A stretch of DNA of 64,000 bases from Candidatus Chloroploca sp. Khr17 (GTDB lineage: Bacteria; Chloroflexota; Chloroflexia; Chloroflexales; Chloroflexaceae): the NCBI RefSeq assembly GCF_004138165.1, contig NZ_RYFF01000007.1:1-64000 (forward strand). The letters run 5' to 3'. The stretch's first letter is position 1. Each line of letters opens with the position of its first letter. The translations under genes were made by a program, and so were the position numbers. This document shows, in pieces, positions 13,649 to 18,732 of this stretch. The notes beneath the pieces are model-generated. The model saw only the letters and a list, made by a program, of their open reading frames with translations. It was not told the DNA's origin and searched no databases.

Positions 13649-16600
13649 GTGGCTCCAGTAGCTCCGGCACTTGTCGCAATCGAGGGGTTGCCAATGCTGG
13701 CAGCCCCCCTCCAGCATGAGCTAGCTCGACACAAAGAGGCGCTCAAGACGGCGCTCGCCCATACCCACGAGCGGGCAAGGCTGTGCACGCGACTTGAACA
13801 GTACCTCGATGGTTCGCCAGGTGGCCTGATCCTCGTGGAAGGCCCACCTGGCAGCGGCGTGAGTACCCTCTTGGCCCAACTCGCGGTGCGCCGCCCCCTG
13901 CCCCTCTGGCAGTCCGCTGTGGCCGGGGCGCAGAGTCTGCATCTGCTCTACGCGCAGTTGGTGGCGTGCTATCGCCCAACGTTGCCGCTCGTTGATCCAA
14001 GCGTCACGACCGATCCTGCTGCGTTCGAACGCCTCGTCGCCGATATCGTGCGGCGCAACCCTCACCACCCGGTGGTTCTGGCCCTCGATGAGCTTACGCC
14101 GCCCGGCCAACCTCGCTATCCTGGCCCGTTACCCTTGCTCGTCGATCTTCCCCCGGGCGTGACCATCCTGCTTGGCTGTAGCCCAGGGGCAGCCCCGCCC
14201 TGGCGCCCGATCGCACGGTTGTGCCTACCTGGTGATGATCCTGACTCGACCCTGGTGCAGGCCCAGATCCTCCGGGCCATAGGCTGCCCTTCAAGCTGGA
14301 TCGGCCCCTTGTTACTCGCCGCCCAGGGCAATTTCCTCTATCTTCGGCTGGCCGTTGCTATGCTGCACACAAAACAGCTCGCGCTTCAGGCCTTGCCGCA
14401 GGGCCTTGAGGCCCTGTTGCTGCACTGGTGGGCCATGCTTGCCCCAGCCGAGCGTCAGTTGGCGCTGGTGCTGGCCGCCGCCGATGCACCGATCCCACCC
14501 AGCCTCGCGGCACTCGTGCTCAAGTACAATCCCATCCTGCTGCTTGCCAGGTGGCAACAAGGCAAGTTGCTTACGCTTTCATGCGAGGCGCGGGCCGGGC
14601 TTGATGGCGATGGAAGCCCCTTGCCACCGGTGCGCTCTGTCCGTTTTGCCCATCGGGCCATCCCTACCCTGGTTGCCCAGATCGCCCCGACCGAAGTAGC
14701 CCGGATGCATCAGAGCCTGGCTGAGTTGGCCGTACAACGCAACGTCACGGTTCCCCGCCACGATCAGCCAGGGCAGCAACCCGTCCGTCACGATGAACCA
14801 ACCGGACCATATCTGCGCCAGGCGTATGCACGGCATGCCGCCCTGGCCTCATCAACCATCCCCTCCGGGCAAAGGCCAGTTTCCACCGTGAGGCCCAGAC
14901 CAGCCAACGCTACTCCACATGAGTTTATGCTTGAGCCAGACCACGCCTGGGTACGTACCCACGAACGGAACGGCACCCTCTGGTATGCGTATGATGAACT
15001 GCGCTGGCGGTTGCGGATGCTGGTCGAAACGAGTATCTACCAGACAAACGAGTTGGGATCGCTAAGCGACCTGATCAGTACGGCGTTGCGTACGGGAACA
15101 TTAGCGAGCCGCGTACGCACGCTGGATCCAGCGATGGCCGCTGAAGCGTTTGTGCAGGCGATCGAGCACAGCGGCCGTGAGGTGGCCCTCAAACAGGTCA
15201 TGGACCAGGTCGAACGTCTTCCCGATGGGCTACAAAAAGCCGTCATCCTGCGGCGTCTTGGCGAGATCTGTTACGCCAACCGGATGCGTCCAACCGCGAT
15301 GCGCTTGCTCTCGCGAGCCCTCGATCTCGAAGCCAATCCCTTGTCACGCGCCTGGCACGAGAGCCGCGAAACGCTGCATATGGCCCTTGCCCGGGCAGCC
15401 CTGCGGCTCGGTGAAGTGGCGGCAACGCTGGCAATTACCGAGCGCATTGAACACCTCGAGCGTCGGGCGATGGTCGAGACCGAGGTTGTACGCCATCTGG
15501 TGACCCTGGGAGCTTGGGAAGAGGCATGCCACCTGGCCTGTGGCATGATGCACGAAACAATGGGCGCCTGGGCGCGCGCCGAGGTTGGGGTCGCCCTGGT
15601 GCGTGCTGGGCACCCCGATGGACAACGTTTGATTGACAGCAGTTCGCTCGCAACGGTTGTTGCCTGGGCCGAAATCGAACTCGCATGCAGCGAAGTCCAA
15701 CACGATGAAGCTGCCGCTCGCCAACGGATCGCCCGGCTCGCCACGCAGAGCCAGCGCGACCGCGGGTTGGCGGCGCTCACACGTACCCTGGCCGCACTCG
15801 GCAATGATGGGGCTGCGCTCAGTGCCGCCGAAAGCATCGTTGGCGTCGAGACACGGATTGCGGCCCTCATCGAACTGCGCCTCACCCTCAACGGCCTGGT
15901 CGCCATGCTCGCCCTGGAACAGGCAACCCGTGCGATCGGTGCGGTGAATGAGGCCGAACGCGCCCCACTGCTCGTGGCGCTCGCCGCTGCCCTCGCCATC
16001 CTGGGGCGGATCGAACGAGCGATCACGCTCGCCAACACCTTGCCCCCAGGCGAAGAACGCCATCGGGCAATGGCAAAAGTCGCTGTTGCGATGGTTCAGA
16101 CCGGTGCGTATGAAGCCGCTTATCGCCTCATGGAAAAGGTCGAGGACACAGATGAGCAAGCCTGGGTCTACACTGAATGGGCCCGTCATCTGGGGCTTAC
16201 CGGGCACTGGGACGAAGCCATGGCTCTGTGCCAGCGCATCCCCGACCCAACACAACAGGCCCATGCCATTGCCAACCTGAGCATCGAACAGGCCCGGAAT
16301 GACGACCCGCGCCTGGCCGTGCAAAAAGCGCTGACCATCACCTGGGCAGCCGAACGTACCCGTGCCCTGATCTTGATGGCACCGCACATGATTGCCGCCG
16401 GAGCCGACCACGAGGCCCTTGCCCTTGCCAACGATCCCTCGGTACTCGCACCGGGCGAGGATCGCGCCCGCTACCTAGCCGCCATTGGGACAGCCCAGGC
16501 CGAACAGGGACACACAATAGCTGCAGCAACCGTCATCGCCTCAATCCGGCGACCAGCCGAGCGCGCCCGTGCGGCCGCCGCGCTGATCTATGCACTCGCC

Positions 16601-16777
16601 GACGAACATCCCAGGCTGGCCCGATCCATCCTCGCCAGTATTCTGCGCACATCAGCCTATGGGCGCGAGGCCATCCTGCGCACCCTCGAAGTAACGGCCC
16701 CCGCCCTGGCGCGCCTGGGGGGGGCCGAATTACTCATCGCAACTGCCGCTGCCGCCGATGCATGTGATCAATGGTGA
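13649..16777 (+). CDS. STAND-like NTPase with degenerate P-loop and helical-repeat C-terminus
   Basis: 1042 residues. The N-terminal part (~45-330) reads as a STAND/AAA-type NTPase: P-loop region LVEGPPGSGVSTLL (65-73), Walker B VVLALDEL (~142-149) and a winged-helix-like region with LAPAERQLALVLAAADAP. The P-loop Lys is replaced by Val71, so nucleotide binding or hydrolysis may be lost. Residues ~480-1040 are Ala/Leu/Arg-rich helical repeats of TPR type (for example RAMAKVAVAMVQTGAYEAAYRLMEKVED), a likely protein-binding solenoid. The GTG start follows GTGAGG; the ATG at 13694 is an alternative. Such proteins often act as signal-dependent scaffolds or in defence; the role here is not known. 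Confidence 0.8.
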   Translation: MAPVAPALVAIEGLPMLAAPLQHELARHKEALKTALAHTHERARLCTRLEQYLDGSPGGLILVEGPPGSGVSTLLAQLAVRRPLPLWQSAVAGAQSLHLLYAQLVACYRPTLPLVDPSVTTDPAAFERLVADIVRRNPHHPVVLALDELTPPGQPRYPGPLPLLVDLPPGVTILLGCSPGAAPPWRPIARLCLPGDDPDSTLVQAQILRAIGCPSSWIGPLLLAAQGNFLYLRLAVAMLHTKQLALQALPQGLEALLLHWWAMLAPAERQLALVLAAADAPIPPSLAALVLKYNPILLLARWQQGKLLTLSCEARAGLDGDGSPLPPVRSVRFAHRAIPTLVAQIAPTEVARMHQSLAELAVQRNVTVPRHDQPGQQPVRHDEPTGPYLRQAYARHAALASSTIPSGQRPVSTVRPRPANATPHEFMLEPDHAWVRTHERNGTLWYAYDELRWRLRMLVETSIYQTNELGSLSDLISTALRTGTLASRVRTLDPAMAAEAFVQAIEHSGREVALKQVMDQVERLPDGLQKAVILRRLGEICYANRMRPTAMRLLSRALDLEANPLSRAWHESRETLHMALARAALRLGEVAATLAITERIEHLERRAMVETEVVRHLVTLGAWEEACHLACGMMHETMGAWARAEVGVALVRAGHPDGQRLIDSSSLATVVAWAEIELACSEVQHDEAAARQRIARLATQSQRDRGLAALTRTLAALGNDGAALSAAESIVGVETRIAALIELRLTLNGLVAMLALEQATRAIGAVNEAERAPLLVALAAALAILGRIERAITLANTLPPGEERHRAMAKVAVAMVQTGAYEAAYRLMEKVEDTDEQAWVYTEWARHLGLTGHWDEAMALCQRIPDPTQQAHAIANLSIEQARNDDPRLAVQKALTITWAAERTRALILMAPHMIAAGADHEALALANDPSVLAPGEDRARYLAAIGTAQAEQGHTIAAATVIASIRRPAERARAAAALIYALADEHPRLARSILASILRTSAYGREAILRTLEVTAPALARLGGAELLIATAAAADACDQW

Positions 16778-16813
16778 AAAGCTCGCTCACGGCGAGACAA
16801 CCGCACCACTTCA
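16770..16813 (-). promoter_or_regulatory. Putative UGA selenocysteine codon with bacterial SECIS-like hairpin
   Basis: On the reverse strand TGA (16813-16811) is followed at once by AGUGGUG (16810-16804), which pairs with CACCAUU (16776-16770). Inside, CUCGC (16796-16792) pairs with GCGAG (16786-16782) around the loop CGUGA, 20 bases after the UGA. The spacing and the G early in the loop fit known bacterial SECIS elements. The 3' arm runs past the next stop (16787). Confidence 0.65.
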
Positions 16814-17833
16814 GGTAGAGCCCGCTGCGGCGGTACATGCATAGCAGTGTGCCCCGGTACGGATCACCCGTCCGGCCAGATCCGCAGGCGTGAGCGCCAA
16901 AATCGTCTGGGGCAGAGCCATGTCGAGCATCTGGTTGAAGTCACAATCGTAGAGGCGCCCATCCCATCCGACTGACAGGATCGTCTTGCACATCAGCCCT
17001 TCAACTGTGCTCGGATTAAAGTTGTTCACCAACAATTCCATATACGCGTGCAGCTCACCTGTGGTCAGCAGATGCTCAAGATAGCGACTGATGGGCATAT
17101 TGGTGAGGGTATAGAGTCGGGTAAACTGGATGTCATAGCGTTGCAGCAACTCACGTCGCCACGTATCCTCAATCGAGGCCTGGGGAAGCGGCAACTCGGG
17201 GCCAAGCGGGTTGGCAATCAAATTAAGTTGCAAGGCAGGATCACGGCCATAGCCACGCGCATTAAATTCTTGCAAAGCTGCGATTGACTGCGCAAAGACC
17301 CCGTCGCCACGCTGCGCATCGGTGCCCTCGAGCGCATAGTGGGGCAACGACGCGATCACCTCTACCTGGTGTTCGGCAAGAAAGGCCGGCAAATAGGCAT
17401 AGTTTGGCAAGCGTGTGATCGTTAAATTGCAACGATCAATCACATGCCGCCCCATCGCCCGCGCCCGCCGCACCATCTCATCAAAAGCCGGATGCAATTC
17501 AGGGGCACCACCGGTAATATCAAGCGTCGGGATCGCGGCGCGCTCCAAAAACGCAAGACATGCTTCAACAACTTCAGGAGGCATCACCTCGGTGCGATCC
17601 GGACCGGCATCAACGTGGCAATGGTGGCAGGTCTGGTTACAGCGACGTCCAACATTGATCTGTAGAACTTCGACCTGCGGTGTTGCACGTAAGGTTGGCA
17701 GACCCGCCTCGGCTAGTTTCGTGCTAAAGCGCGGGACGGGGATTTCGGCCAGGATCCGGCGCTGGGCCTCAGGTGATGCGAGCATATGCTTGCGTCGCTG
17801 CAAGGTTGGGATCAGGCTGATTTTCTCAAGCAT
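16787..17833 (-). CDS. arsS: ArsS-like radical SAM protein, probable selenoprotein (Sec at 16811-16813)
   Basis: 348 residues if the TGA at 16813-16811 is read as selenocysteine, 340 if it stops there. The radical SAM motif is C65-NQT-C69-HH-C72, followed by LDITGGAPELHP and a C-terminal Cys-rich domain (VEGLMCKTILSVGWDGRLYDCDFNQ, HCYACTAAAGST). Relatives from arsenosugar synthesis and the TIGR04167-type family end in GSSCGG. Here GST is followed by TGA and then SGAVVSP before a second TGA at 16789-16787, so the TGA occupies the conserved Cys position. A SECIS-like hairpin follows directly. The start has GGAGG 8 bases upstream. No arsM or sel genes lie in the window. The substrate is inferred from the family. 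Confidence 0.85.
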
Positions 17834-18066: not shown

Positions 18067-18363
18067 CTATGATCCCGTTCCACTACGAATCTCGCGAAGA
18101 ATAGCCTCAACCTGGTCTGGTGATTGACCATGACGAGCTAGCACGTTCGCGGTTAGTTCCAGCACCTGATCGGCAAAGCGCTGGGCAAGCTCCTGGCGGA
18201 GACCCTGCCCAAGATAGAGTTTGATCAGCGCGTCTACCGACATATCGCGTGCTCCTGCGATGCGCGCCAGGTGTTCGTAGGTCTCGGTTGGCACCTTCAG
18301 TTCAACCCTGGTAACAGGCCTTGGGCGAAGCTTCAACTCAGTGGGAAACTCAGGCTGACTCAT
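18067..18363 (-). CDS. brnA: BrnA-type ribbon-helix-helix antitoxin
   Basis: 98 residues. RVELKVPTETYEHLARIAGARDMSVDALIKLYLGQGL reads as a ribbon-helix-helix DNA-binding domain, and the C-terminal helix (AQRFADQVLELTANVLARHG) is a likely toxin-binding tail. It follows a BrnT-family toxin gene and overlaps it by 14 bases, the usual order for BrnT/BrnA. BrnA-type antitoxins neutralise BrnT and repress the operon. I chose the ATG at 18363; the frame is open further upstream into brnT. The name rests mainly on the partner. Confidence 0.75.
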   Translation of the reverse strand: MSQPEFPTELKLRPRPVTRVELKVPTETYEHLARIAGARDMSVDALIKLYLGQGLRQELAQRFADQVLELTANVLARHGQSPDQVEAILREIRSGTGS

Positions 18364-18649
18364 ACTGCTTCCTTTCGGCCCGTGTTGCCGTGCGTGCAGA
18401 AATAATCTTTGTACGCTCGCCCCGTTCCGTAAAAACAACCAGCAATAACCGCTGGGAGATCGAATAGCCGAGGATGAAGTCGCGTTGCTCGCTTACTCCA
18501 TCTGGGGTTGCATCACCGGATTGATAGAAGGGATCGAAGAAGACTTCGGCTGCTTCGGGAAATGCAATCCCATGCCGAACCAGATTCTGCTTTGCCTTCT
18601 CGTCATTCCACTCGAACGTCATCCCTTGAAGCCAGAAGACAACATCCAT
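18350..18649 (-). CDS. brnT: BrnT-family ribonuclease toxin
   Basis: About 99 residues of the BrnT (DUF497) family, RelE-like ribonucleases. Diagnostic parts: TFEWNDEKAKQNLVRHGIAFPEAAEVFFDP near the N-terminus, then RDFILGYSISQRLLLVVFTERGERTKIISARTATRAERKQYE with the basic and Arg residues used in catalysis. Starts at 18661 (GTG), 18649 (ATG) and 18622 (ATG) are all in frame; 18649 gives the usual 8-10 residues before FEW. It is first in a two-gene operon with brnA, probably autorepressed. Confidence 0.85.
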   Translation of the reverse strand: MDVVFWLQGMTFEWNDEKAKQNLVRHGIAFPEAAEVFFDPFYQSGDATPDGVSEQRDFILGYSISQRLLLVVFTERGERTKIISARTATRAERKQYESA

Positions 18650-18732
18650 ACCGCTGCTCACAGAAAGATCAATCTTTACAGCTCATGATACCATACCATC
18701 ACTTCCCATCCACTTCCCATCCACCAAGGTTG

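Follow-up and report, generated by a model that had tools for sequence, protein, structure and literature searches.

Does a radical SAM gene on the reverse strand of this 64,000-nt window end at the first TGA in its frame, or is that TGA read as selenocysteine (Sec), with a second TGA ending the protein eight codons later? The called ORF, 17833..16811 on the reverse strand, encodes 340 amino acids with the C-terminus HCYACTAAAGST, followed by TGA at 16813-16811; read-through of this TGA yields Sec341-SGAVVSP and then the second TGA at 16789-16787. A preliminary description of the window favored read-through. Its coordinates and letters for the gene end, both TGAs, the arms of the hairpin that follows and a CGUGA loop 20 nt from the UGA are correct, as is its statement that gene callers would truncate the protein by eight residues (340 vs. 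348 amino acids). The features discussed below are:

16787..17833, reverse strand: full arsS selenoprotein frame, 348 amino acids with putative Sec341, translated with the TGA read through; TIGR04167, Radical_SAM, DUF3641
16811..16813, reverse strand: putative Sec codon TGA, aligning with the GSSCGG Cys of homologues
16787..16789, reverse strand: putative terminator TGA, inside the SECIS loop; invariant in 11/11 Sec-form relatives
16770..16810, reverse strand: hairpin of SECIS type, immediately 3′ of the Sec codon, with outer arms at 16810-16804 and 16776-16770
16782..16796, reverse strand: conserved apical stem-loop CUCGC-CGUGA-GCGAG; CGCCGTGAGCG invariant in the alignment, with two covarying pairs

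The arsS gene and its family

By profile search, the product matches NCBIfam TIGR04167 (“arsenosugar biosynthesis radical SAM (seleno)protein ArsS”) over residues 53-340 with 401.6 bits, above the curated cut-off of 300 bits, and contains Radical_SAM and DUF3641 domains. In a 40-sequence alignment the radical SAM motif CxxxCxxC (C65, C69, C72) is invariant, as are C282, C297, C330, C333, G343, and position 341 if Sec is read as Cys. The C-terminal GSS[C/U]GG motif is present as GSTU-SGA, with position 341 aligned to the homologue Cys, confirming the earlier placement of the TGA on the conserved Cys of GSSCGG. The gene at 17833..16787 is thus very probably an ArsS with Sec in place of the family Cys (probability about 0.95, from sequence comparison). 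Standard gene calling cuts off the C-terminus, and an invariant residue of catalytic type is lost.

Two neighboring regions of the window may be mentioned. A 1042-amino-acid AAA_16-like protein is encoded on the opposite strand (13649-16777, forward), ending 9 bases from the true arsS end, and its final codons run into the 3′ arm of the outer hairpin stem. At 18067-18661 on the reverse strand are two short ORFs that overlap each other (103 and 123 amino acids) and by eye have the look of a BrnT/BrnA-type toxin-antitoxin pair; neither has an NCBIfam match.

Function and predicted structure

ArsS enzymes join the 5′-deoxyadenosyl radical of SAM to dimethylarsenite, yielding DDMAA, a precursor of arsenosugars. 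The window's enzyme probably makes this precursor. Elsewhere in the host genome, on contigs other than that of arsS, are genes for an arsM-type methyltransferase (289.8 bits; cut-off 263 bits) and for a TIGR04282 arsenosugar transferase, which scored 161.6 bits; as neither is near arsS, the assignment to arsenosugar synthesis depends on membership in the family. A Sec-containing enzyme with a different substrate and no part in DDMAA synthesis would fit both this lack of arsenic genes beside arsS and a function assigned solely via the family. It is nevertheless improbable, given that the match to TIGR04167 is at equivalog level and that in five relatives arsS has a TIGR04282- or TIGR04283-type gene as its neighbor (in G031, for example, a TIGR04283 transferase adjoins it).

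For the favored arsenosugar enzyme, the predicted structure has a pLDDT of 93, falling below 50 in the tail (residues 342-348). The fold of the model is that of the SPASM/twitch radical SAM enzymes, with SkfB (6efn) aligning at Z 20.0 and rmsd 3.1 over 241 residues; Foldseek likewise ranked this group first. The same fold is found in SuiB, EpeE, BlsE, and anSMEcpe, and the CX9GX4C sequence of these enzymes is matched at C282-G292-C297, a spacing (C282-x9-G-x4-C297) that fits the known SPASM/twitch signature. Unlike them, ArsS has the short C-terminal HCYxC...GSSC/U motif of DUF3641, and identity is 16%. A sequence search for a solved structure of a close ArsS relative found none, matching only distant radical SAM enzymes. 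Because of the fold and the signature, C282, C297, C330, and C333 are probable auxiliary-cluster ligands in the model; position 341 is eight residues past C333.

Conservation of the TGA and the selenocysteine machinery

Within the window's family, 11 genomes, the host included, use TGA as codon 341, with TAA or TAG in none of them, an outcome that bears out the preliminary description for close relatives. Homologues in other phyla, outside this family, carry Cys within GSSCGG or a motif much like it; within the family, G012 has Cys at this position. All 81 of the Cys-type homologues compared have Cys at the aligned position. Following the UGA, the Sec-form relatives retain the sequence [SAT]G(A/T)[VI]xxP through synonymous changes, as expected for translated sequence. 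A survey of 400 genomes of the phylum found the Sec-form pattern in nine, all in the window's family, and a reversed control pattern in none.

The preliminary description had also pointed to the sel genes as a check. The host genome (6.38 Mb, 100% complete) contains all of them by profile search: selA (554.9 bits), selB (315.9 bits), and selD (375.5 bits), together with a tRNA-Sec (70.5 bits; anticodon tca according to ARAGORN). selD has its own in-frame TGA near the N-terminus: the gene (L018:1480-2523, forward strand) is itself a selenoprotein gene, with TGA at codon 18 in the context SSAG-U-ASKLGPGALAKLL. Among the genomes searched from the window's family, selA was found in 31 of 36. One genome with a Sec-form arsS (G030, locus L024) has selA only as a 58-residue fragment, probably because its assembly is broken up (1640 contigs, with 7% contamination).

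The hairpin

Directly downstream of the UGA, AGUGGUG (16810-16804) can pair with CACCAUU (16776-16770) as an outer stem, within which CUCGC and GCGAG close the CGUGA loop; the first loop base is 20 nt past the UGA. Published rules for bacterial SECIS elements (bSECIS) call for an apical loop of 3-9 nt, an upper stem of 4-16 bp, a distance of 16-37 nt from the UGA, and a G within the first two loop positions (PMC13188914). The arsS hairpin, with its 5-nt loop, 5-bp stem, and loop start at 20 nt, satisfies these, as do 364 of the 2335 TGAs in the window (15.6%). Folding alone is not above chance either (z = −1.18, with 24 of 200 shuffled sequences folding equally well), and hairpin strength was rejected as stand-alone evidence on both counts. 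An Rfam search with the hairpin found no match.

Comparison among relatives is more informative. The earlier proposal of a SECIS hairpin holds for the apical stem, which is conserved with covariation; the outer arms pair only within the window's genus (G001 and G002), with no conservation farther away. Ten distinct sequences all carry CGCCGTGAGCG unchanged, with constant spacing to the Sec codon, and 100% of their apical-stem cells are paired; a separate prediction gives the same stem. The two outer of its five pairs vary, with compensatory changes only (CG/UA in one, GC/UA/AU in the other). There are 7 compensatory cells against 2.2 expected, a value reached in 0 of 500 shuffles, for a set of rows from one family in which only these two pairs vary.

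The evidence for Sec is above chance because it combines the TGA conserved in 11 genomes, the apical-stem covariation, and a full set of Sec machinery. The first TGA is, to be sure, a normal stop codon at which any gene caller would end arsS, and such hairpins are common in the DNA of the window. An ArsS that ended at GST in this lineage, having lost its last conserved Cys, is nonetheless very unlikely: relatives show TGA and never TAA or TAG, the residues downstream match the family tail, covariation in the stem spans the later stop, and all the sel genes are present.

A putative stop codon within the SECIS loop

The position given earlier for the second TGA was right, but its place in the hairpin had been missed. 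In 11/11 Sec forms, this putative terminator UGA forms the final three bases of the CGUGA loop, eight codons past the Sec codon. Since the stem's 3′ half follows this stop and would not be translated, its covariation with the coding arm cannot stem from constraint on the protein. That both UGAs encode Sec and the protein runs on can be dismissed as scarcely credible: the second codon is likewise always UGA, but past it only GCG is kept, which is the 3′ stem arm, there is no second conserved hairpin, and the Cys-form sister G012 ends at the same place with TGA. Read-through at the second UGA was accordingly rejected for lack of downstream conservation.

With the second UGA taken as the terminator, its origin can be considered. 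Of the 81 Cys-type homologues, 34 stop at TGA, 26 at TAA, and 21 at TAG; the stop is mostly six codons past the Cys. The nearest Cys sister, G012, has a TGA stop at the same spacing as the Sec forms, and since it is a Cys form, this single sister sequence suggests that the terminator may predate the SECIS. It is possible, though doubtful, that the SECIS of this lineage was built round a pre-existing terminator UGA, so that a single triplet both belongs to the recoding signal and ends translation. If so, SelB bound at the loop could also influence termination, or initiation at an overlapping next gene in relatives.

UXX-star selenoproteins, as their name implies, have Sec as the third residue from the end, and SECIS elements running past the stop must also occur in these. 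The literature searched, with incomplete coverage, contains no mention of a stop codon within a SECIS loop, or of the ArsS of this lineage.

Separately, in one genus (L027, L028, and L029) a TIGR04282-type glycosyltransferase frame starts within or just after the arsS SECIS (L028:812-1525, reverse strand, is the copy scored), which suggests translational coupling.

Origin and other Sec-form ArsS proteins

A tree of 92 sequences groups the 11 Sec forms as one clade (support 100/99), nested within the Cys forms beside G012. Because of this nesting, the simplest reading is a single Cys-to-Sec change in the lineage.

Sec in this family is not new, and its novelty had been overstated: both the ArsS family and its GxxU Sec site were already in print, with “Radical SAM domain protein, TIGR04167, GxxU, AAR34688.1” listed as a predicted prokaryotic selenoprotein (PMC13188914, PMC9312934). 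The window's ArsS is a well-supported addition to this known selenoprotein family. It resembles the AAR34688.1 type in family, in Sec position (GSTU and GxxU, respectively), and in its short tail after Sec; it differs in belonging to a Sec clade nested among Cys forms, in its terminator UGA within the SECIS loop, and in its host, which belongs to the window's own family.

Another Sec-form ArsS, from a phylum other than the window's, is found at L137 (genome G725, in the phylum of G423), ending GSTU-TGAVAGGQPA-TAA. The GSTU-TGAVA tail is like that in the window, and a hairpin follows the UGA at a similar distance; the hairpin itself is different (GGCAGGC-GGUCA-GCCUGCU), and the stop is a TAA after the loop rather than inside it. 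A search for the Geobacter Sec-ArsS covered 3 genomes from a single order and 395 from a single phylum, chosen round a presumably deltaproteobacterial locus; it returned one Sec form but not the Geobacter protein, the set possibly containing no Geobacter.

Proposed mechanism and implications

From the sequences we infer that UGA341 would be decoded as Sec by SelB and tRNA-Sec through the hairpin directly 3′ of it. The ribosome would then unwind the SECIS hairpin, add seven residues, and terminate at the second UGA, until then part of the hairpin loop. Sec341 would take the place of the invariant Cys near the auxiliary-cluster-type residues C282, C297, C330, and C333. It may ligate the cluster, serve in redox chemistry, or bind arsenic; most likely, it would do the work of the Cys thiol in a more reactive or arsenic-binding form during adenosylation of dimethylarsenite.

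Small as it is, the placement of a stop codon in a SECIS loop is a peculiarity of recoding that can be tested. For the family, a clear single Cys-to-Sec conversion in an arsenic-handling enzyme, with Cys-form sisters at hand, would allow a direct test of selenium preference.
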